Shown here: positions 3,295 through 21,357 of the stretch, one piece after another
Position numbering within the stretch: the first letter of the stretch is position 1
How the letters are laid out: the number at the start of each line of letters is the position of its first letter
Virus record (IMG/VR): IMGVR_UViG_3300009108_000054
Location: 1-24,336 of that record
Reading direction: 5' to 3' (one strand)
DNA length: 24,336 nt
Origin: a virus
Position numbers and translations under genes: made by a program
The notes under the pieces: generated by a model
The model's database searches: none
What the model was told of the DNA's origin: nothing
Seen by the model: only the letters and a program-made list of their open reading frames with translations

Positions 3295-3322
3295 TTAAGG
3301 GGGTATATTTCAACCCCCTTAA
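3295..3322 (-). terminator. GC-rich hairpin after the major capsid gene
   Basis: A perfect 10-bp inverted repeat, TTAAGGGGGT and ACCCCCTTAA, with an 8-base loop, sits 11 bases after the capsid stop and before the ribosome site of the next gene. No U-tract follows on the transcribed strand. It is therefore more likely a partial terminator, or an mRNA-stabilising hairpin that raises capsid expression relative to the fibre genes, than a full stop. Confidence 0.55.
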
Positions 3323-10161: not shown

Positions 10162-11772
10162 ATGAACTTAACAAATAACAAATCAAAACATTACTCAGCG
10201 GAAATAATAAAAGGGATATTCGATAGAAATGCAAAGCATGGGCAAGGAACATTTTGCCTATTATTCGGAGATTATCAAAAGAAAGATAAACATTACATGT
10301 TTTCAAACTCGTTAATTCTTTCCGGCTACATGCTAAACGATAGACAAACAACCTTCGCGAGCTTCGACTATGTTGAAATGAAGAAATTTCTTACATGCGA
10401 AAAACTAATTCTTGATTGGACTCAACCATATCAACAAACAAGCGGAGAAAGTTCACAAGATATCGTTTCCTTACCAAATCAATCCGATTTAGACATGCAC
10501 TACTTAATTTTAAAAAAGGATTGCAAATATATTTGGGATTTAAGAATATCTTGCCCAAGCCATATTAAGCAAAGAAATATTCGCTATTGTAAAACTTGCC
10601 AATATAGTTATGTTAATTTTTGTCAATGTATAGATAATGCAAAGATAGAAGAAGGTAAAACGACAATGACAAAAGCCATTCGATTTCATGACATTGACAT
10701 TAATGGAAATGACATAATGAGTAATGTATCATTAAATGAAATTGGGCAAACTCAAAAAAAGGGATTTATTGGTTTTGAATGGGAACTAGGATATAACAAA
10801 GAAGGAACGACAACCCAAAAACAAACAACCCAAATTTTCAGACAAATCAAAAAGCAAGGGATAGGAATGCTAAACCTATTTGGCGAAACTTTAACCGATA
10901 GTTCAATAAGCCAATTTTACGCGAAAGGCTCAGAAATTCCAACGCACCCATTTTCATTTAAATATTATAGCAAGTATGAGAAAGAATTAAACAAGCTCAG
11001 CGACTTCGCAAATAAATCTGAAATATTCGGAAAGGGATTGGGATTTCACATTCACATTTCAAGGGATTGCTTTTCACAAAATCATTTAATTAAATGGTTG
11101 GCTTTCATGACAAGTTCAAGCCAAATATTATTGGAATTAAGCGGAAGAAATCCGGAAGGCGGAACTTTTCAAACTTACGCAAGATTACAACTCCCAAACC
11201 GATTCGAAGCACAACTAAAAAAGGCAACGAGAACAATGACAACGCACGCCAAATTGGAAGCAATGGCAAAGACAATTTTGGCACGCGATACTTTCGGAAA
11301 CAAGTTCAATTACCTTAATTTCACGCACTCACAAACGATTGAATATAGATTGCCGGCTAGTGCAACCGGAACAAGCAAGGAGAACGAGTTCTCTAAGATT
11401 GGGCGACATATAGAGTTAATGTTCGCAACGCATGAATATTCCGGATTGAAATCAATCCATGACATGCAATTTACATTGTTTTTAGATTGGCTAAAAAAAC
11501 ATAAAAAATATGTCAATCTTTACAATTCGATTGTCAGCAATGATAGAGCCTTAAATGAGTTAATCGAAAGCTCAGAATATAATCTAGTTTCTACTTTAAC
11601 AATACCGAATGCGGAGCAATATGATTTAAGCAACGCGGAAGACATGGAAGAAATGGAGAGCAATTTCGAAAGGTTCAAAAAGCAAGCAAAGAAAGTTAAA
11701 AATGCTAAAAAAGACGCAAGGAAAATTGTCAAAAAGCATAAAGGTAAAATCATTAAAAAGGAGAAAAAATAA
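10162..11772 (+). CDS. Amidoligase (carboxylate-amine ligase, PF12224-type)
   Basis: 536 residues; ATG at 10162 is preceded by AAAGGAGAT. A Cys cluster (C143, C146, C154, C156) may bind zinc. The amidoligase core follows. It has GFEWEL (residues 204-209, metal and ATP acids), TDSS near 245-248, a GSE motif at 256-258, GFHIHIS with H296/H298, and YLNF then TIEYRLPAS (384-400) with E394/R396. These match the glutamine-synthetase-like COOH-NH2 ligase family, which joins an amine to a carboxylate using ATP. The N-terminal 140 residues are unrecognised, and the C-terminal 40 are a lysine-rich tail. It overlaps the glutamine amidotransferase start (TAATG), so ammonia from glutamine is the likely amine. 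The substrate could be a peptide, the host cell wall or a phage protein; it is not known. Confidence 0.8.
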   Translation: MNLTNNKSKHYSAEIIKGIFDRNAKHGQGTFCLLFGDYQKKDKHYMFSNSLILSGYMLNDRQTTFASFDYVEMKKFLTCEKLILDWTQPYQQTSGESSQDIVSLPNQSDLDMHYLILKKDCKYIWDLRISCPSHIKQRNIRYCKTCQYSYVNFCQCIDNAKIEEGKTTMTKAIRFHDIDINGNDIMSNVSLNEIGQTQKKGFIGFEWELGYNKEGTTTQKQTTQIFRQIKKQGIGMLNLFGETLTDSSISQFYAKGSEIPTHPFSFKYYSKYEKELNKLSDFANKSEIFGKGLGFHIHISRDCFSQNHLIKWLAFMTSSSQILLELSGRNPEGGTFQTYARLQLPNRFEAQLKKATRTMTTHAKLEAMAKTILARDTFGNKFNYLNFTHSQTIEYRLPASATGTSKENEFSKIGRHIELMFATHEYSGLKSIHDMQFTLFLDWLKKHKKYVNLYNSIVSNDRALNELIESSEYNLVSTLTIPNAEQYDLSNAEDMEEMESNFERFKKQAKKVKNAKKDARKIVKKHKGKIIKKEKK

Positions 11773-12503
11773 TGTGTGTAGTAATTCTAAAACCTAAAAA
11801 TATAGTAATTAGTAAAGATACATTGAATAAATGTTGGCAAGCAAATCAACATGGCGGAGGGTTCGCTTTCGCTCACAATGGAAAAATTGCTTTATTTAAA
11901 TCGCTTGACAAAAAGGACTTTATGAAAAAACTCCTTTCAAGCATGTCAAGATTTCCGCAAGAAAATTTTATTATTCATTTTCGAATAAGAACGAGCGGAA
12001 ATATTTCAATGGCGAATATTCATCCTTTTGTAATCAATAAAAATAATGTTTTTGCTCACAATGGACATATTTCCGGCTTTCCAAATCATGCGAAAATTTC
12101 AGACACTCGATTTTTTCAAAAGGCAATTTTGTCAGAAATGAAACTAGATATTGAGAACAAAGCTCAAATGTCTTTGATTTCAATGGCTATTGGGCAAAAT
12201 AATTTAATGGCTTTCCTAAATTCAAGCGGAAAGTATAGCCTAGCAAATGAAGAAAGCGGAACATGGGAAAGCGGTTCATGGTTTTCCAATATGTTTTGGC
12301 AACCATATAAAAGTTATTACTATAAAGATAAAGAAGAGGCTCACGAGTTCGAATATGCGGAAATGCTTGAATTGAACGAGCTTAACGATTGCAATTTTTC
12401 GGAAGAACAATTGCAACAAGCAAAAGAAAAAGAAGAAGAATTAAAGGAATGGAAAGGGAAAACTTTGGAACAATTCCAAGATAAAATGAAAGGAGGGATT
12501 TAA
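11772..12503 (+). CDS. Class II glutamine amidotransferase
   Basis: 243 residues. Cys2, exposed after Met removal, is the nucleophile (MCVVILK). Other Ntn-hydrolase landmarks are present: QHGGGFAFAHNG (26-37), HFRIRTSG (69-76), HPF (84-86), FAHNGHISGF (94-103) and SDT (110-112). The first 180 residues make a full glutaminase domain. The last 60 are an acidic coiled-coil tail with no synthase domain. A stand-alone glutaminase must pass ammonia to a partner; the ligase encoded directly upstream and overlapping by one base is the obvious one. Pairs of amidoligase and class II amidotransferase have been described in phages and bacteria by comparative genomics. Confidence 0.85.
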   Translation: MCVVILKPKNIVISKDTLNKCWQANQHGGGFAFAHNGKIALFKSLDKKDFMKKLLSSMSRFPQENFIIHFRIRTSGNISMANIHPFVINKNNVFAHNGHISGFPNHAKISDTRFFQKAILSEMKLDIENKAQMSLISMAIGQNNLMAFLNSSGKYSLANEESGTWESGSWFSNMFWQPYKSYYYKDKEEAHEFEYAEMLELNELNDCNFSEEQLQQAKEKEEELKEWKGKTLEQFQDKMKGGI

Positions 12504-12584
12504 ATGCTTTACTTAGAGCTTAGCATGTTCGCTTTCTCAATCATTCTAGTTTGGGAAATGCTTAAATCAATATGGAGGGATTAA
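12504..12584 (+). CDS. 26-residue membrane microprotein
   Basis: ATG directly follows the amidotransferase stop, with AAAGGAGGG at ideal spacing. The product is one hydrophobic helix (MLYLELSMFAFSIILVWEML, then KSIWRD) with a charged C-terminus. The strong ribosome site and tight spacing argue for real translation. It could be a membrane anchor, a small toxin-like peptide, or the substrate that the ligase pair modifies. None is proven. Confidence 0.6.
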   Translation: MLYLELSMFAFSIILVWEMLKSIWRD

Positions 12585-12585
12585 A

Positions 12586-12687
12586 ATGGAACAAGATTGC
12601 ATAAATGAGTTTTGCCGGCAACAATGGTTTCCAACGATTGTTTTTTTACTTGTTTTTGTTCGCTTAATCGTTAAAATCTTTGATTAA
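12586..12687 (+). CDS. 33-residue membrane microprotein
   Basis: ATG at 12586 comes one base after the previous stop, with GGAGGG upstream. The N-terminus has Cys5 and Cys10 and a charged face (MEQDCINEFCRQQWF). Then comes one transmembrane segment (TIVFLLVFVRLIVKIF). It closes the operon before a strong terminator. Two successive single-pass microproteins with good ribosome sites suggest a membrane-located output for the amidoligase system. Function is unknown. Confidence 0.6.
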   Translation: MEQDCINEFCRQQWFPTIVFLLVFVRLIVKIFD

Positions 12688-12717
12688 TTGAGCAATAAAT
12701 CAAGTATCTCCGAAAAG

Positions 12718-12744
12718 AAAGCCGATTAATTTCGGCTTTTTTTT
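12718..12744 (+). terminator. Rho-independent terminator of the amidoligase operon
   Basis: An 8-bp stem AAAGCCGA / TCGGCTTT with a 6-base loop TTAATT is followed by an unbroken run of T to 12744. It lies 31 bases after the last microprotein stop and ends the four-gene unit cleanly. Confidence 0.85.
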
Positions 12745-12790
12745 ACCCAAAAACGCCAAAAAACAAGTGAATATATATTCGAAAACAAAT

Positions 12791-12822
12791 TTTAAATCGA
12801 TTTTAGAGCCATTTTAGAAGCT
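12791..12822 (+). repeat. Dispersed repeat containing AAATCGATTT, copy 1
   Basis: Starts TTTAAATCGATT and includes the palindrome AAATCGATTT. A diverged copy occupies 23729-23759, with the first 12 bases identical and most of the rest conserved. Both copies lie in gene-free DNA close to the end of a transcription unit. Confidence 0.45.
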
Positions 12823-12900
12823 CGTTTTTTGGCAAAATCTCCAAAATTCGCAAAAAGTCGATCAGATAAACCGGCTGCAAAATTTTTAAAAACATGAAAT

Positions 12901-12930
12901 GTTCTGGGATTTTTGGAAAAAAATGGATCT
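12901..12930 (+). repeat. Direct repeat, right copy, flanking the amidoligase operon
   Basis: Thirty bases starting GTTCTGGGATTTTT, matching 10027-10054 apart from two single-base homopolymer differences. Similarity weakens but continues downstream (an AAAACA..GTT..TTTT pattern follows both copies). See the left copy for interpretation. Confidence 0.7.
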
Positions 12931-13056
12931 TTTTTTTTGCCAAAAAAAACAGTTCTTTTTATGAAAAAAAAATTTTTTAAAAAAACGCAAAAAGCCATTT
13001 TTGCGATTTTGAAATTTTAAAAGCATGTCAAATTTTTGAAAAAGTGCCAAAAAAAA

Positions 13057-13122
13057 ATACTGATCAGTATTGATCCGGGAAGATCAGCCGCAGATGATCC
13101 CCTAAAAAATTTTTTACTGATC
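13057..13122. repeat. Palindrome and GATC cluster
   Basis: ATACTGATCAGTAT (13057-13070) is a perfect 14-bp palindrome. It is followed by TGATC-CGGGAA-GATCA as a second inverted pair (13071-13086) and two further GATC sites (13096-13099 and 13119-13122). A similar but weaker cluster sits in the other flanking region (9777-9815), with the same ACTGATCA start and a downstream CGCAGA. These may be methylation-sensitive binding sites. Confidence 0.45.
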
Positions 13123-13282
13123 CTTTTCCTGTGAAAAAAAAGTGCCCAAAAAATCAATTTTTTTTTCAAAAATAAAAATTTTTTTCAGATCCTTATTTCT
13201 CATCTGTAAAGTTTTGGATATTTTTAACGATTATCTATTGATATTGTATAAATTATAAATTAATTGCTAATTAAAAAAACAC

Positions 13283-13312
13283 TTGATTTAATTACCCCCC
13301 CCATGTTATATT
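13283..13312 (+). promoter_or_regulatory. Early promoter with C8 tract (copy 1)
   Basis: TTGATT (13283-13288) and TATATT (13307-13312) are 18 bases apart. Between them is a run of eight C (13295-13302). It lies 28 bases before the first ATG of the long replication operon. The C-run plus TATAT arrangement recurs at 15344 and 16375, which supports a shared promoter class. Confidence 0.6.
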
Positions 13313-13340
13313 CCATAAAATGCAATTAAAGGAGCAAACA

Positions 13341-13520
13341 ATGAAAAGATATAAAGTTTATAGTTGGGAATTGGTATGGGTAAAATATTCTCAAGAAATT
13401 AAAGCAAAGAACAAAGAGGAAGCAGAAAAAAGAGCAGACGATGGAGATTGGGGAGATATTGTTCAATTTGGAGACTATACAAAAGATAGAGAAATAATAG
13501 TAAAGGAGATAGAACAATGA
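13341..13520 (+). CDS. 59-residue hypothetical, first gene of the early operon
   Basis: I chose ATG at 13341, which has AAAGGAG seven bases upstream, over an earlier in-frame start at 13320 that has none. The protein begins MKRYKVYSWELVWVKYSQEI and ends DREIIVKEIEQ. The alternating hydrophobic pattern and the AKNKEEAEKRADDGDW segment look like a small alpha-beta fold seen in short phage early proteins. Stop overlaps the next start (ATGA). Function unknown. Confidence 0.65.
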   Translation: MKRYKVYSWELVWVKYSQEIKAKNKEEAEKRADDGDWGDIVQFGDYTKDREIIVKEIEQ

Positions 13521-13969
13521 AAAAGAAACAAACTAATCCAATCAATTATGATCAATGCGTTGATCATATAGAAGGCAATGCCGATCTATACCTTAGCAAT
13601 AGAGACAAGAAAAGAGATACTAGCAATTATGAGTTAGTAGAGTCAAAATTTATGAGTCATGGATTTGTTCTTTATAAAGAAACAAAAATTTTAAAGAAAC
13701 AACCATCTCAACTAGATGTAATTGAATCACATAAAAAATTCGCAAAAGAAAATAAATTACTATTTATCAACTTAACCTGGGGGCAAGGAGATTTGCTTGT
13801 AGAAAGCAAGGTTTCGATAATGCCATCACTAGATGATGAAGGAGAAAGGTTTGTTCAATTAGTTTTGTCATCAAACTATAAAGAAGATGCACAATGTATT
13901 TATCATCAGGTAATGAAATATAAACCAAATAAAATTTTAAAACAAAAAAAGGAAGGGTTAGAAACATGA
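13517..13969 (+). CDS. 150-residue hypothetical protein
   Basis: Starts in an ATGA overlap with the preceding gene, with AAGGAG upstream. It is charged and soluble, with no membrane segment. The centre (KKFAKENKLLFINLTWGQGD, about 72-91) and the region FVQLVLSSNYKEDAQCIYHQ look like strands and a helix of a compact domain. The two cysteines (C14, C128) are too few for a zinc site. It ends in an overlap with the zinc-ribbon gene. No family recognised; an early accessory or host-takeover protein is plausible from position only. Confidence 0.65.
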   Translation: MKKKQTNPINYDQCVDHIEGNADLYLSNRDKKRDTSNYELVESKFMSHGFVLYKETKILKKQPSQLDVIESHKKFAKENKLLFINLTWGQGDLLVESKVSIMPSLDDEGERFVQLVLSSNYKEDAQCIYHQVMKYKPNKILKQKKEGLET

Positions 13970-14235
13970 GTTTAATAAAGAAGAAACCTAAGAGAAAACA
14001 CGAAGAAACAAATCATGGATCAGCAAGAAAACTTTGTTGTCCTTATTGTGATAGTAATGATATTTCTATCATGGGATGGGTAGATCCAAACGATGCTTGG
14101 CTAAAATATACTCCTTTGGATCAAAAAGATAATTGTTGGTGCAATGAATGCCAAAAACATTTTAACTATGCAAACATCGGATTGAAATGTGATGGAATAA
14201 TTTTTAAAGGAGAAAAGAAAGAAGGTGCATCATGA
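13966..14235 (+). CDS. Zinc-ribbon protein, unknown function
   Basis: 89 residues, overlapping both neighbours by four bases. A zinc ribbon is clear: CCPYCDSNDISIMGW (Cys24, 25, 28), then CWCNECQKHF (Cys56, 58, 61), with a tryptophan-rich middle. The N-terminus is basic (KKKPKRKHEE) and may contact nucleic acid. Ribbons of this sort are common in small phage regulators and replication accessories. Nothing in the sequence says which. Confidence 0.65.
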   Translation: MSLIKKKPKRKHEETNHGSARKLCCPYCDSNDISIMGWVDPNDAWLKYTPLDQKDNCWCNECQKHFNYANIGLKCDGIIFKGEKKEGAS

Positions 14236-14558
14236 TACCGGTAAACCAACTAAGCGATATTCAACGAGTTTTGGTAGATACTAATGGAAAAATATTTACC
14301 GCTCATTTTGTAAAAAAGAATGGAGAAATACGAGAAATGAATTGTCGATTAGGTGTCAAAAAACACATAAAAGGAACTGGGCAGCCTTCATTCACTTTAA
14401 AAAAAGATAATCCATATATACTTGTCTATGATTTAAAGGTTAAAAATTATAGAACAATTAACCTTGAAACACTGTTTCAGATCAACTTCGGCGGGAAAAC
14501 TTACATTACCAACGAAAAGCTGTGGGAACATGTTGAAGGAGACAACAATGGAACATAA
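14232..14558 (+). CDS. SH3-like beta-barrel phage protein
   Basis: 108 residues. The core reads KIFTAHFVKKNGEIREMNCR followed by LGVKKHIKGTGQP, and later YILVYDLKVKNYRTINLETL then GGKTYI. This string of short strands (FxVxFxKKDGxxRxMNxRxGVxKxxKG, VxDxxxxxYRxINxxxI) matches the small SH3 beta-barrel fold proteins that recur in phages. They are thought to bind nucleic acid or act as regulators, but no biochemistry is known to me. It overlaps the next microprotein start by 11 bases. Confidence 0.7.
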   Translation: MIPVNQLSDIQRVLVDTNGKIFTAHFVKKNGEIREMNCRLGVKKHIKGTGQPSFTLKKDNPYILVYDLKVKNYRTINLETLFQINFGGKTYITNEKLWEHVEGDNNGT

Positions 14559-14622
14559 CATTTTTTGGATCATAGTCGGTATAATTGGTTGGCTATACTT
14601 TATAGGAGAAGGAATGTCATGA
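14548..14622 (+). CDS. 24-residue membrane microprotein
   Basis: ATG at 14548 has GAAGGAGACAAC upstream. The product is one hydrophobic helix (MEHNIFWIIVGIIGWLYFIG plus EGMS). Its stop overlaps the next gene start as ATGA, and its start lies within the end of the previous gene. These couplings make it likely to be translated. It could also be a leader whose translation controls the next gene. Confidence 0.5.
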   Translation: MEHNIFWIIVGIIGWLYFIGEGMS

Positions 14623-14843
14623 GTAAATATTATACATACGAAGATATAAACAAAATGATACGATTTTTAAAAGTGAAAAATATTGCTCAAATGCAATACT
14701 TTTTCGGTGGGAAAATGGGTGTTCGCTTTGTGAACAACAACAAGAGTTTCAGGTGTTTTTATGACTATACGAGCAGGTGTAGTTTAAGCTTGGATCAAGT
14801 TATTTCAATGTATAAAGAAAGCAAGGGAGAAGAAGATGAGTAA
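14619..14843 (+). CDS. 74-residue hypothetical protein
   Basis: I place the start at ATG 14619, with AGGAGAAGG upstream and a four-base overlap with the membrane microprotein. A longer in-frame version from 14565 lacks a ribosome site. The protein begins MSKYYTYEDINKMIRFLKVK and has GKMGVRFVNNNKSFRCF in the middle, then a helix (SLDQVISMYKESKGE). It is small, basic and soluble. No family recognised. Confidence 0.6.
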   Translation: MSKYYTYEDINKMIRFLKVKNIAQMQYFFGGKMGVRFVNNNKSFRCFYDYTSRCSLSLDQVISMYKESKGEEDE

Positions 14844-15033
14844 GAAAGAGAGCAAGGAACAATATCCCCTACAAAATAGGGTGGTAAGTTCAGGATTAGT
14901 TATGTTGGATCTTGAAATTCAAGTGATGGTAGAAAAACATAAGTTGCAAATATCCATGTTAAAAAATGAAATTGAATATTTAAAAAAAGTAATACAAATT
15001 CATGATAAAGGAAGAAAAGGAGAAACATCATGA
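14836..15033 (+). CDS. Small coiled-coil protein
   Basis: 65 residues, overlapping the previous stop by eight bases with AGGGAGAAGAAG upstream. Residues 25-60 form one amphipathic helix (LDLEIQVMVEKHKLQISMLK onward), probably a dimeric coiled coil. Its stop overlaps the next start (ATGA-like). No function recognised. Confidence 0.55.
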   Translation: MSKKESKEQYPLQNRVVSSGLVMLDLEIQVMVEKHKLQISMLKNEIEYLKKVIQIHDKGRKGETS

Positions 15034-15338
15034 CTACTAAACAACAAACCAGCAGCAATCAAGTCCAGCCCCAGGATCAACCGCAGAACGCAAAAGGTGT
15101 AAAACGCAAACTCACTAAGAAAGGGCAAGTTCTGGATCACTTGCAGCAATTCGGGAGCATCACATCAAGAGAAGCGATAACGCTGTTCTGGGCGACACGA
15201 CTTTCTGATATTATTTTTAAACTAAGAAATGAAGGGCACATCCTTATAACTACGAGATACCCTAATAAGAATGGCGGAGGAACTTATGCTGTTTATAATT
15301 ACGAAGGTTGGAATGGAAAATATACTGAGCCAAAATAG
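15030..15338 (+). CDS. Winged-helix DNA-binding protein
   Basis: 102 residues, ATG at 15030 with AAGGAGAAA upstream. The first 25 residues are Gln-rich and disordered. Then comes a winged-helix pattern: KGQVLDHLQQFGSITSREA, TRLSDIIFKLRNEGHIL (recognition helix) and a hairpin wing ending GGTYAVYNYEGW. This QVLxHLxxxGxITSxEA...RLSxIIxxLRxxGxxI string is a frequent phage HTH protein. Gene-dense early position suggests an early regulator, possibly acting at the C-tract promoters, but the target is unknown. It is the last gene before the second C-tract promoter. Confidence 0.7.
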   Translation: MTTKQQTSSNQVQPQDQPQNAKGVKRKLTKKGQVLDHLQQFGSITSREAITLFWATRLSDIIFKLRNEGHILITTRYPNKNGGGTYAVYNYEGWNGKYTEPK

Positions 15339-15343
15339 CTATA

Positions 15344-15363
15344 CCCCCCCCTTATATTATAAT
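15344..15363 (+). promoter_or_regulatory. Promoter with C8 tract (copy 2)
   Basis: Eight C (15344-15351) are followed at once by TTATATTATAAT, containing a perfect TATAAT at 15358-15363. No clear -35 box is present. It lies five bases after the HTH gene stop and 39 bases before the next ATG. Confidence 0.55.
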
Positions 15364-15402
15364 AGTTGCATAGTTAATACATTTATTATTAACTTGAAAA
15401 AA

Positions 15403-15594
15403 ATGATGAAAAACGAACAAGAGACTAAGCTAGTGCTAGTTTTAAGGGATGTAGAAGAATGTGATATGATATTATATGGGTTAGATCAACTTCCAAGAAC
15501 AACTCAAAATGTCAATATGAACAAACTAAATCAACTAAAAGGCACTATACAAGTTATCAAGCAAAGCGTGAAGAAAAAATTCGCCCGCTTATAA
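15403..15594 (+). CDS. 63-residue hypothetical protein
   Basis: Start taken as ATG 15403, the first after the C-tract promoter; a second ATG follows directly. No clear ribosome site. The protein begins MMKNEQETKLVLVLRDVEEC and ends IKQSVKKKFARL. It is a short helical, basic protein. The in-frame extension to 15271 runs through the previous gene and promoter, so it is rejected. Function unknown. Confidence 0.5.
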   Translation: MMKNEQETKLVLVLRDVEECDMILYGLDQLPRTTQNVNMNKLNQLKGTIQVIKQSVKKKFARL

Positions 15595-15677
15595 ACCTAT
15601 TTACCCTTTATATCTCATTAGTTTGTTCATTGAGGTTTGTAGGCGGGATCATTATGTAAAAAAGTAAAGGAGACAGT

Positions 15678-15836
15678 ATGTCAGAAGACAAAGAAAAGAA
15701 AGTAGGACTATTAATACCAAAAACACTATGGGTTGATTTAGATAAAATTGCTAAAACACAATTCCGCAGCACAAGTGCATTAGGTAGAAAAGTTATAAGT
15801 GAATATGTTCAAGGGAGGAAAAATGACAAAAGATGA
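15678..15836 (+). CDS. Small ribbon-helix-helix-like protein
   Basis: 52 residues, ATG at 15678 with AAAGGAGACAGT upstream. After a charged start it reads KVGLLIPKTLWVDLDKIAKT and then QFRSTSALGRKVISEYVQ. A short strand, a helix, a turn and a second helix is the layout of Arc/CopG regulators (V-x-x-x-IP-x-x-L-x-x-x-L...). It overlaps the next gene by 14 bases. A small repressor role is inferred from fold pattern only. Confidence 0.55.
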   Translation: MSEDKEKKVGLLIPKTLWVDLDKIAKTQFRSTSALGRKVISEYVQGRKNDKR

Positions 15837-16278
15837 AATTTGTAAGAAGTATGAATTAGATCCTGATAGAACGAATGTTGAAGGTAAAGGACATTTTTGG
15901 CTACACAAACAAAGTAATAAAGAATGTATTACTTTTGAAGGTGTAGAGAAAATGATCGATTACCACCAGATCAAGTTTAGAGAACCATCAAAAAACTTTT
16001 CTAGTAAAGAAGGAGAAGTCTCATTGTTAATTTTTGGTTATTTCACGAAAGAAGAAGATGGCAAAACTAAATCACAAGATACCGCTTGGAGTTTTGGAGA
16101 AGCAAGTAAGGAAAATTGTGGTTATATATCATACCCCTGGGCGATGGCAGAAAAAAGAGGTAAGATGCGAGTTGCATTAAAGCTTTTAGGAATTTATGGA
16201 GGATCAAGCGGTTTCTATTCTGATGTTGAAATGGAAATTTCTCAGAAATATGAAAACGACAACGATCATGGCTTATAA
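15823..16278 (+). CDS. Putative recombination annealing protein (ERF/Rad52-like)
   Basis: 151 residues. ATG 15823 has GGGAGGAAAA upstream and is preferred to a start at 15799, which lacks one. N-terminal strands (GHFWLHKQSNKECITF, FREPSKNFSSKEGEVSLLIFG) precede the C-terminal motif SFGEASKENC then YISYPWAMAEKRGKMRVALK and a YSDVEME tail. The G-E-A-x-x-x-N ... YPxAMAEKRxxxRAxLKLxGxxG...YS-E pattern is shared by ERF-like and related single-strand annealing proteins of phages. The predicted role, pairing complementary DNA strands in phage recombination, fits the nuclease and SSB-like genes downstream. It is shorter than ERF proteins, so this is a tentative family call. Confidence 0.5.
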   Translation: MTKDEICKKYELDPDRTNVEGKGHFWLHKQSNKECITFEGVEKMIDYHQIKFREPSKNFSSKEGEVSLLIFGYFTKEEDGKTKSQDTAWSFGEASKENCGYISYPWAMAEKRGKMRVALKLLGIYGGSSGFYSDVEMEISQKYENDNDHGL

Positions 16279-16314
16279 TTTAGGGGTGGGCATTTTATTA
16301 ATAGCATAAATATG

Positions 16315-16337
16315 AAAGGTATTTTTTACCCTTTTTT
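16315..16337 (+). terminator. Weak terminator-like hairpin
   Basis: AAAGGTA pairs with TACCCTTT with one bulged C, followed by a run of six T. It lies after the annealing-protein gene and before the third C-tract promoter. Imperfect stem, so low confidence. Confidence 0.35.
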
Positions 16338-16368
16338 AAAGGCTGTTAAACAAATATAGGTTGGCTAC

Positions 16369-16394
16369 TTGAAGCCCCCCCATACATTTTATAT
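16369..16394 (+). promoter_or_regulatory. Promoter with C7 tract (copy 3)
   Basis: TTGAAG (16369-16374) is followed at once by seven C (16375-16381) and a TTATAT box at 16389-16394, giving about 14-15 bases between boxes. It precedes the replication-gene block, whose first ATG is at 16436. Confidence 0.55.
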
Positions 16395-16419
16395 GTAGCT
16401 TACCCAATGATAAGCTACA
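16394..16419 (+). promoter_or_regulatory. Leader hairpin or operator after promoter copy 3
   Basis: A perfect 9-bp inverted repeat, TGTAGCTTA and TAAGCTACA, with an 8-base loop sits between the TATAT box and the ribosome site of the first gene. It is either a repressor operator or a 5-prime RNA hairpin. The other two C-tract promoters lack it. Confidence 0.45.
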
Positions 16420-16435
16420 AAGAAAGGAGTGAACA

Positions 16436-16501
16436 ATGAAGTTCAAGGTATTAAAATCTAATCATTTAGATTGTGAGAGTAAAGGCAAACATGAATTTTG
16501 A
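16436..16501 (+). CDS. 21-residue leader peptide or microprotein
   Basis: ATG 16436 has AAAGGAGTG upstream and the frame stops at 16501. The product starts MKFKVLKSNHLDCES. The next gene begins inside its end at 16491. A strong ribosome site on such a short frame suggests a leader that couples translation, rather than a functional protein. Confidence 0.4.
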   Translation: MKFKVLKSNHLDCESKGKHEF

Positions 16502-16820
16502 ACCATTAAAACAATTAGATGTTAATTTTGATAGCTCTAAGGACTTTTGGGAAAAAACAACAGACGAAAGATATCAGTATTTTAAAAATGCTTGTTTCTC
16601 TCAGATATTGTTCCTGAAAACGCTTCAAGCTGAGACAAGAGATGAGCAATTATGCAGTCTTGCAGCTATGCAATTTGCAAATATTTGCACTCTATTGGTA
16701 TATCTAATGACAACAGACGAAGAAAGAGAATCTGATATAGAAATGAAGTGGCTTAATAAGATCCAAAAGGAAACAAACCAATTAATAATGGTTTCTACAC
16801 AACAACAAGGGGAAGCGTGA
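16491..16820 (+). CDS. 109-residue hypothetical helical protein
   Basis: I use ATG 16491 (AAAGGC upstream) rather than an earlier in-frame GTG. The protein starts MNFEPLKQLDVNFDSSKDFW and is mostly helical (LCSLAAMQFANICTLLVYLM, residues about 54-73, hydrophobic but with charged flanks). It ends at the GTGA overlap with the replisome organizer gene. No family recognised. Position suggests a replication accessory. Confidence 0.55.
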   Translation: MNFEPLKQLDVNFDSSKDFWEKTTDERYQYFKNACFSQILFLKTLQAETRDEQLCSLAAMQFANICTLLVYLMTTDEERESDIEMKWLNKIQKETNQLIMVSTQQQGEA

Positions 16821-17548
16821 GCGGTTGGATAAAACTTCATAGGAGTATTCAAGATCATTGGATTTTTAAAAAAGTAGATTACTTTAAAGCTTGGATTTTG
16901 TTGCTTATAAAAGCAAATCACAAAGAATATACAACCATGTTTTTAGATCAACTTGTCCATATTAATAGGGGAGAAACTATCTTGTCTTATTCTAAATTTG
17001 GGTTAGAGTTGGGTTGGAGTTCTTCTAAGGTTAGAAGGTTTTTAAAGTTGTTAGAAAAAGATAAGATGATTGTTATATATCCTGAAAAGAAATGGACACA
17101 CCTAAGTATCTTAAACTACGAGACTTACCAATATAATGGAATAGGAGACGACACGCTTGCGACACAGACAAGAAACGATGGCGAAAACAATATAAGAATG
17201 ATAAAGAAGAATAAGAATGAAAAGAAAACTTTATCAAAAAAAGAACAATTAGATTTAATCAAGAAAGACATTAAAAATTATAAAGAGAAGTTTCCCAATG
17301 TTGATGTTGATTTAGAATATGCAAGAATGTGTGATTGGTTATTGTCAAGTGGCAAACTATATAAAAACTATAAAGCTTTTTTTAATAATTGGTTAAGGAA
17401 AGCCGATACCGACAATCCAAAAGAAGATATAATTTGGTATGTTTTTACTTGCAATGTTTGCAAAAAACAAAAAGATAAAAGCACATATAGAGATTTATAT
17501 GTCTCATGTTGCGACAAGGCGATCCAACCGATAAAGGAGTATGTATGA
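16817..17548 (+). CDS. Replisome organizer-like protein
   Basis: 243 residues from GTG 16817 (AAGGGGAAG upstream). The N-terminus MSGWIKLHRSIQDHWIFKK and the winged-helix part (GETILSYSKFGLELGWSSSK, VRRFLKLLEKDKMI) are typical of phage replisome-organizer or DnaD-type N-terminal domains that bind the origin. A Lys-rich linker follows, then a small helical part (ARMCDWLLSSGKLYKNYKAF). The end has CNVCKKQKDK, and later SCC, that could hold a zinc. It would load the host helicase at the phage origin. No helicase or polymerase is seen in the window, so host replication proteins are probably recruited. Confidence 0.65.
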   Translation: MSGWIKLHRSIQDHWIFKKVDYFKAWILLLIKANHKEYTTMFLDQLVHINRGETILSYSKFGLELGWSSSKVRRFLKLLEKDKMIVIYPEKKWTHLSILNYETYQYNGIGDDTLATQTRNDGENNIRMIKKNKNEKKTLSKKEQLDLIKKDIKNYKEKFPNVDVDLEYARMCDWLLSSGKLYKNYKAFFNNWLRKADTDNPKEDIIWYVFTCNVCKKQKDKSTYRDLYVSCCDKAIQPIKEYV

Positions 17549-20121: not shown

Positions 20122-21113
20122 AACATGGAAGTTTATTTAGTGGAATCGGCGGCATTGATCTCGGGTTTGAAATGGCAGGAATACAAACATTGTGGACTTG
20201 CGAAATTGACGATTGGGCAAACAAGCTATTGCAAAAAAGATTTCCGCTTGCAACGCATTATAGAGACATTAAAGATATTGGAGCACATAATCTTGAAGGA
20301 GTTGATGTTATTAGCGGAGGTTTTCCTTGCCAAGACATCAGCACAGCAGGGAAGGGAGCAGGGTTAAAAGGTGCGAGGAGTGGTTTATGGTTTGAAATGT
20401 GGAGAATTATTAGCGAGCTTCGCCCAAGATGGGTTCTTATTGAAAATGTCGCAAATCTCACTTTTAAAGGAGGAGCAAGAGTTCTTCACGATCTTGCCGA
20501 AATCGGGTATGATGCGGAATGGCAAATTATATCAGCAAGAGATGTTGGAGCACGACATCTACGAAAAAGAATCTGGATCATCGCCTACCCAAGAGAAGTT
20601 TCCAACTCCGAACGCAAGAGATTTTCGAGATCGGATCTCAGCCCTAAAGTGCAGGGTGGGAACGAAGTGGGAAAAAAACAACCTTCCGAGAGCAGTTTAC
20701 AGAACAGCAGCATTAAACTTTCCAACTCCGAAAGTATCGGACATAGAAGGAGCTCCGGTAAAAAATGTAGAGTTGAGCGAGAAGGGAAGCTTCAGCAGGA
20801 AGAACAAAAAAGGAATAAGGTGGGGAGTAAAACTAAAAGACGCAGTAATATATCTTCACAATCAACTTCCGAAAGAAGAACAAAGCAAAATTTTGAAGAA
20901 GAAGATAAAAGAAATGGAAGATTTAAGCTCAGAACCTTTGACGAGCTTAAAAGTGAACCCCGATTGGATAGAGTGGCTTATGGGCTTTCCCAAAAAGTGG
21001 ACAGATATAACGATAGAGTCAAAGGACTTGGAAATGCAGTTATACCACAAATCCCATATCTTATCGGAAGAAAGTTAATTGAACTAAACAATAAGGAGAA
21101 AAACAATGGCTGA
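20118..21113 (+). CDS. dcm: DNA (cytosine-5) methyltransferase
   Basis: 331 residues from ATG 20118, which makes an ATGA overlap with the small Cys protein. The longer form from a TTG at 20004 adds a non-conserved head. Motifs in order: SLFSGIGGIDLGF (I), GGFPCQDIS with catalytic C71 (IV), ENV at 109-111 (VI), GYDAEWQIISARDVGARHLR then KRIWIIAYP (VIII), and GLGNAVIP around 303-310 (X). Residues 160-275 are a charged, variable target-recognition region, with VSNSERKR and LSNSESIGHRR marks. EPRLDRVAYGL follows near 279. Enzyme and motif order are intact, so it should make 5-methylcytosine, protecting phage DNA or mimicking the host. The +1 frame of its 3-prime two thirds is open and encodes another recognisable pattern (next entry). 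Confidence 0.93.
   Translation: MKHGSLFSGIGGIDLGFEMAGIQTLWTCEIDDWANKLLQKRFPLATHYRDIKDIGAHNLEGVDVISGGFPCQDISTAGKGAGLKGARSGLWFEMWRIISELRPRWVLIENVANLTFKGGARVLHDLAEIGYDAEWQIISARDVGARHLRKRIWIIAYPREVSNSERKRFSRSDLSPKVQGGNEVGKKQPSESSLQNSSIKLSNSESIGHRRSSGKKCRVEREGKLQQEEQKRNKVGSKTKRRSNISSQSTSERRTKQNFEEEDKRNGRFKLRTFDELKSEPRLDRVAYGLSQKVDRYNDRVKGLGNAVIPQIPYLIGRKLIELNNKEKNNG
20371..21078 (+). CDS. Overprinted +1-frame protein inside dcm
   Basis: 235 residues from GTG 20371, preceded by GCAGGG at about 7 bases. The whole frame lies within dcm in the +1 register. Its protein is not random. It has LLASFAQDGFLLKMSQISLL (13-32), LPKSGMMRNGKLYQ (42-55), two FPTPxxxD motifs (FPTPNARD at 77-84, FPTPKVSD at 117-124) and NPDWIEWLMGFPKKWTDI (196-213). 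I recognise these as the hallmark of a phage protein family usually annotated as methyltransferase-associated. GMMRNG is written by the same bases as GYDAEW of the methyltransferase, and FPTPNARD as VSNSERKR. This could be a separate overprinted gene, or a frameshift extension of the methyltransferase. It could also be a fossil of such a pair. Function is unknown. Confidence 0.6.
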   Translation: MRGVVYGLKCGELLASFAQDGFLLKMSQISLLKEEQEFFTILPKSGMMRNGKLYQQEMLEHDIYEKESGSSPTQEKFPTPNARDFRDRISALKCRVGTKWEKNNLPRAVYRTAALNFPTPKVSDIEGAPVKNVELSEKGSFSRKNKKGIRWGVKLKDAVIYLHNQLPKEEQSKILKKKIKEMEDLSSEPLTSLKVNPDWIEWLMGFPKKWTDITIESKDLEMQLYHKSHILSEES

Positions 21114-21357
21114 TAAATTTGAACTAAAAGAAGGACAAGGGTTTCTATTTAAAAATAAATTTAAAAAAGAAGGAAACCCTGAACACTCAAAAAAATATGA
21201 CTACTCAGGAAATTTCAAAATAAATGGAGAGGAAGTTCAGGTTCTTCTTTGGAAAGCAAGGACTAAAAAAGGAGAGCCTATGTTAAAGCTTGCTAAAAAA
21301 GAATATAGAGAAAAGAAACAAGATGAAACATATTCATCTGATGATCTTCCTTTTTAA
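21106..21357 (+). CDS. Putative single-stranded DNA-binding protein
   Basis: 83 residues, ATG 21106 with AAGGAGAAA upstream, overlapping the dcm stop. A small beta-rich domain (FELKEGQGFLFKNKFKK, YSGNFKINGEEVQVLLWK, MLKLAKK) is followed by an acidic tail ending SSDDLPF. A terminal DDLPF/DDIPF motif is the SSB signature through which SSB recruits other replication proteins. The N-terminal part could be a short OB-like fold, but it is smaller than a standard SSB. It lies between two methyltransferase genes, and its stop abuts the next ATG. SSB function is inferred from the tail and the beta pattern. Confidence 0.55.
   Translation: MADKFELKEGQGFLFKNKFKKEGNPEHSKKYDYSGNFKINGEEVQVLLWKARTKKGEPMLKLAKKEYREKKQDETYSSDDLPF

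Follow-up and report, generated by a model that had tools for sequence, protein, structure and literature searches.

The translational operator of gene 32 in phage T4 is a structured leader that lies next to an SSB-type gene. A study of E. coli promoters reported that those with GC-rich spacers require negative supercoiling, and that the GC content of the spacer sets the sensitivity to supercoiling (PMC8695583). Homopolymeric C-runs are also known hardware of bacterial promoters. The poly-C promoter of opc in Neisseria was reported to be phase-variable (PMC3960869), and for fim3 in Bordetella, a phenotypic mutant with one C deleted in the promoter was reported (PMC10172299). The locus described here has features in common with each of these systems. 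The window, that is, the whole stretch of 24,336 bases that was analysed, comes from a marine phage and belongs to an IMG/VR record classed as linear. Two C8 runs (13295-13302, site 1; 15344-15351, site 2) and one C7 run (16375-16381, site 3) were present where the first-pass annotation had reported them, and no further C/G run of at least 6 was found on either strand of the window. A first-order Markov model gave an expectation of 0.31 runs of at least 7 and 0.06 runs of at least 8. Overlapping CCCCCC words occurred 8 times, whereas the shuffle mean was 1.85, and a count of 8 was reached by 1 of 100 shuffles. A TATAT followed each run (at 13307, 15353 and 16390). The gaps were 4, 1 and 8 bases, so the range of 1-7 bases given earlier was slightly off. 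The distances from the runs to the next ATG were 38 (13341), 51 (15403) and 54 bases (16436), and an in-frame ATG at 13320 lies just 17 bases past run 1.

The terminase, capsid and phosphoesterase were used as queries, which gave several hundred relatives, and 80 per query were retained. The clade was defined as the records with the early genes of the window (14232, the winged-helix gene at 15030, and 15406). The sister phages share the terminase (about 67%) and the phosphoesterase (about 50%) and are without the early genes of the clade. L002 was the sole relative from the single-protein scans with both DnaD-like and phosphoesterase proteins, and the cultured relatives were all too distant to indicate the host. 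The 19 clade records (348 kb) contained 32 C/G runs of at least 7, against about 2.6 expected. All 32 were C on the + strand. The sister phages had 3 such runs against 1.7 expected, which is no excess. By the analysts' own assignment, the 32 runs were divided among four places, with 13 at site A, 4 at site B, 12 at site C and 3 at site 2. Runs at non-promoter places would speak against a promoter element, and the result was divided: random places had no runs of at least 7, but 16 of the 32 runs belonged to sites B and C, neither of which is a promoter spacer. As judged from these sequences, the C-runs mark the replication-gene region of the clade; they are conserved, lie on the sense strand and are of at least two kinds. 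With a probability of about three in four, the two kinds are runs in promoter spacers (13295 and, less clearly, 15344) and the 3' strand of the helix P1 in a conserved RNA (16375).

Site 1 is site A of the clade and reads TTGATT-18-TATATT at 13283-13312 on the + strand. The -35-like TTGATT (13283-13288; TTGACT, TTGACA or TTGCAT at the same place in relatives) is separated from the -10-like TATATT (13307-13312) by an 18-bp spacer that holds the C8, and a TG one base upstream of the latter gives the extended -10 form. Site A opens the early operon and follows the GATase gene and a gap rich in A/T. The first ORF past promoter 1 (13320-13520, + strand) has its ATG 7 nt after the -10 in a leaderless layout, and its in-frame ATG at 13341 is preceded by the SD AAAGGAG. 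The non-coding gap before promoter 1 spans about 0.8 kb (12504-13319) and abounds in runs of A and of T. Farther upstream, at 10162-12503, an Amidoligase_2-like gene (below the Pfam cut-off) lies beside the class-II GATase gene, and both are kept in relatives.

The arrangement of site 1 recurred in 12 relatives, with a TTGACT-like -35, a spacer of 17-18 bp holding the C-run, and TAnnnT. The layout of site A was TTGACT/TTGACA/TTGCAT/TTGATT, 3-6 nt, C6-9, 4-6 nt and TAnnnT, and an ATG usually followed after 6-9 nt; therefore, the C-run is placed within the spacer. Thirteen of these runs were of at least 7, and G006 had a C6. The spacing of sigma70-type promoters (16-19 bp) was found in nearly all records as 17-18 bp, and this total stayed constant for runs of C6 to C9 because the flanks compensated. 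In G004, G005, L293 and L295, the printed best-scoring promoter pair differed from the hand-read pair; the hand-read pairs among them were TTGCAT-17-TAAACT, TTGACT-18-CAAATT and TTGACA-18-TAATTT, and the -10 of G005 was poor. The promoter scan recovered the same pair at site 1 of the window. Over the region, it returned 18 promoter-like pairs against 17.1 in shuffles, and because this is no excess, the case for the promoter rests on the comparison among relatives.

The layout of site 2 was the same as that of site 1. The C8 (15344-15351) lies upstream of a -10-like TATAAT (15358-15363, both on the + strand), and the -35 in the window is weak, a good one being absent. The -35, C-run and -10 were kept in L002 (TTGACT) and L303 (TTGGTA). 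The leader past promoter 2 contains the inverted repeat GTTAATA/TATTAAC (15373-15393, + strand), which was seen in the sequence and is kept in L002. The first-pass annotation had taken the runs for parts of a promoter element. They do mark conserved regulatory sites on the sense strand before genes, and in many relatives site 1, together with site 2, resembles a promoter. However, the run had been placed upstream of the promoter, and at both sites it sits inside the -35/-10 spacer.

The position, spacing and conservation of the promoter are evident from the records compared. The run at 13295, and less clearly that at 15344, would lie inside a sigma70-type -35/-10 spacer that starts a transcription unit, and host RNA polymerase would be expected to begin transcription at the ATG or immediately upstream of it. 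Set in a spacer rich in A/T, the G:C block would most likely tune the opening of the promoter, for example, through its dependence on negative supercoiling, or a factor would read the block. By analogy with E. coli, the supercoiling effect of a GC-rich spacer may carry over to the clade promoters. Supercoiling alone fails to explain why the sense strand always has C and never G, and a sequence-specific reader thus keeps a place among the candidates.

A conserved structured RNA of about 100 nt was recognised at site 3 (16283-16381, + strand) by a model match, RNAfold and covariation. RNAfold on the window gave helices P1, P2, P3 and P4, and the architecture consists of P1, an arm P2/P3 and a hairpin P4 (GGU-UGGCU-ACY). 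The 5' strand of P1 is GGGGUGGGC (16283-16291), which covaries in relatives, and its 3' strand is GCCCCCCC (16374-16381), which is the third C-run. P2, which also covaries, is formed by UUAAUAGC (16298-16305) and GCUGUUAA (16342-16349), and the P4 hairpin (16357-16371) carries the conserved GGUUGGCUAC at 16359-16368. A separate inverted repeat, TAGCTTA/TAAGCTA (16396-16417, + strand), lies in the leader before the MKFKVLK gene; it was also found in relatives without the C-run RNA at that place. An intrinsic terminator at site 3 was considered and rejected, as there is no U-run.

The conserved GGTTGGCTACT that precedes the run was used as a search sequence; some clade members keep it and have GTCTCC or GCCTCC in place of the C-run, and these variants were matched by GGAGAC or GGAGGC some 70 nt farther 5'. 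Scanning IMG/VR with a pattern revealed more phages with the two strands of P1 changing together, and the co-changed pairs were GGGGUAG/CUACCCC, GAGGUAG/CUACCUC, UUAGCGGGUG/CACCCGCUAA and UUAACUUCCCUUC/GAAGGGAAGUUAA. MAFFT misaligned P1, and permutation tests and a covariance model were therefore used. When the 5' and 3' strands of P1 were re-paired among 24 sequences, the observed complementarity was reached in 0 of 5000 permutations; the values were 0 of 5000 for the 13 sequences without C-runs, 49 of 5000 inside the C-run group and 0 of 5000 for the P4 hairpin, with the relatedness among the sequences left in place by the P1 and P4 permutations. The idea of a single C-run plus TATAT promoter element common to the three sites was not supported, since the site 3 run is the 3' strand of a helix that keeps its complementarity and not its C sequence.

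Matches to the covariance model R1, built from 14 sister-phage sequences only, fell where the RNA was expected, both in the window and in the clade copies. The score for the window copy was weak (16279-16384, 18.7 bits, E 0.53), and that for the nearest relative, L002, was 26.7 bits (E 0.007). The fold of the window RNA had a z of -1.4. Because its own score is weak, the window copy is assigned to this RNA through L002 and a chain of relatives. In the model-fitted alignment A5, 92.8% of cells paired, against 70.3% when shuffled and 46-55% when slid, and 103 cells had double changes against 28.9, with double changes at 16 of 16 pairs; A5 was fitted to the structure, and these counts are thus inflated. 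Across the phage sequences compared, the RNA helices covary, and compensatory changes were found.

The RNA lies directly 5' of an SSB-like gene in most C-run members and directly 3' of it in G006. In most sister phages, it lies directly 3' of a gene whose product has the same DELPF-type tail as the SSB-like protein, a match made by the tail alone. The RNA precedes the MKFKVLK gene in the window and L002, and the window homologue of its usual neighbour in relatives, the SSB-like gene (phrog_18154), is at 21106-21357 on the + strand. The MKFKVLK gene has 21 codons in the window (16436-16501), and its product in L002 has 93 aa. A search of Rfam 15 with positions 12500-17000 of the window (E up to 5) returned nothing for the RNA, and the search with nine loci of relatives (E up to 1) yielded only a 12-bit chance hit to tmRNA at another place. 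In named phage genomes, blastn did not detect the RNA and returned only short matches of 21-28 nt, and a pattern scan of bacterial genomes flagged 47 places, most of which were chance or repeats as judged by the model score. The RNA would act in cis on the neighbouring mRNA, like a translational operator or a riboswitch. A broader proposition, on which we are evenly divided, is that P1 / P2-P3 / P4 with GCAAAUAC-N-GGUUGGCUAC would be an undescribed RNA class, widespread in uncultured marine phages, linked to the SSB-like gene and serving as a cis-regulator or small-RNA module; the clade would moreover use C7-9 runs as a signal of its own, both in this RNA and in promoter spacers. The motif GCAAATAC-N-GGTTGGCTACTAA past a gene end, without P1, was seen in other AT-rich phage contigs (L376, L381, L383, L397, L399, L406, L418 and L438) and may represent another class of this RNA. 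A conserved GGCAAGATGAAATTCACGATAAGC...TCTTGCC, with a small ORF and an inverted repeat, was observed 3' of the RNA in L282, L447, L452 and L401.

Site B consists of a C7-8 run 1-2 nt before an ATG, past an AAGGAA-type SD and 3' of the DnaD-like gene, in four relatives (G004 8681, G005 14436, L304 9322 and L299 1451). It fits neither the promoter kind nor the RNA kind, which keeps a shared reader of the C-runs under consideration. A phage- or host-encoded protein would then recognise C7-9 at each of the four kinds of site, as an operator or in RNA, the homopolymer itself being the signal. This explanation is doubtful but is the strongest of the alternatives. The confinement of all runs of at least 7 to C on the sense strand is consistent with it, as are the pure C strand of the RNA opposite an interrupted G partner (GGGGUGGGC, GAGCGGGGG and GGAGGCGGGGG) and the lack of a recognised promoter or RNA around the site B run. 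However, records such as G002, G006, L206 and L313 have the site A run, yet their RNA is without a C-run, and a candidate protein is lacking. The winged-helix protein (15030-15338, + strand; Pfam HTH_39, phrog_4973) had been suggested for this role in the first-pass annotation. Its gene was present in every site A record covering the region, a link that is confounded by clade membership. AT-rich loci with winged-helix genes outside the clade (718 kb) had 12 runs of at least 7 against 10.3 expected, which is no excess, and the -35/C-run layout was absent from them except in L582, which carries the site A sequence of L298 and hence belongs to the clade. The protein was accordingly rejected as a general C-run reader.

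Slippage in the C-run, which would alter the spacer length and switch the promoter, is improbable, although the promoters of opc and fim3 provide a precedent. The runs are short (6-9), and the spacer total is held. Moreover, near-identical pairs share the length of the site A run (G003/L199, C9; L168/L181, C8; L293/L295, C9), and a length difference within a near pair was found only in the RNA (C7 in G003, C8 in L199). A phase-variable poly-C promoter was rejected because close relatives show no spacer change driven by run length. An additional promoter at site 3, with TTGGCT from GGTTGGCTAC as the -35 and the C-run in the spacer, is just as improbable. L002 does have TTGGCT 17 bp from TATAAT, but other members that keep GGTTGGCTAC lose the -10 or exchange the C-run for GCCTCC or GTCTCC with matching 5' strands, and in G003-G005 the start would land in or beside the SD; this promoter was rejected on the loss of the -10 or the replacement of the run. 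Functionless homopolymers produced by chance or mutation can practically be dismissed: other phages do have rare long runs by chance, but the clade has a 12-fold excess, on a single strand and always at the same four places, and the sister phages have no excess.

Elsewhere in the window, an inverted repeat (3299-3318; GGGGG TATATTTCAA CCCCC) lies between the capsid gene and its neighbour, with GGGGGG/CCCCCC in the relatives L088, L098 and L108; it is perhaps a terminator.

With the runs read as promoter-spacer blocks and a helix strand, one guessed promoter box becomes two testable things. The first is a natural promoter set with a homopolymer block fixed in the spacer, which may be useful for exploring how spacer mechanics time phage genes. 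The second is a covarying RNA beside a replication gene, common to many uncultured marine phages and directly probeable.

Like sigma70-type phage early promoters with a GC-rich spacer, the site A promoters have the form TTGACa / 17-18 bp / TAnnnT; unlike them, they have an uninterrupted C-run at a fixed position of the spacer throughout the clade, and the ATG is often at about +1. A homopolymeric C-run also lies in the core region of the poly-C promoters of opc in Neisseria and of fim2/fim3 in Bordetella. Those promoters serve phase-variable bacterial surface genes and have longer tracts than the short runs found here, whereas the present promoter is an early phage promoter with a constant spacer and no sign of switching. 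The RNA resembles the T4 gene 32 operator as a phage structured leader beside an SSB-type gene, a likeness of gene linkage alone; its fold differs, and in many relatives it lies after and not before the SSB-like gene. It is set apart from the Rfam 15 families by having no match among them in the regions searched, and it is similar to the candidate structured RNAs derived from metagenomes (e.g., PMC2864571) in being a covarying intergenic RNA, here in marine phages.
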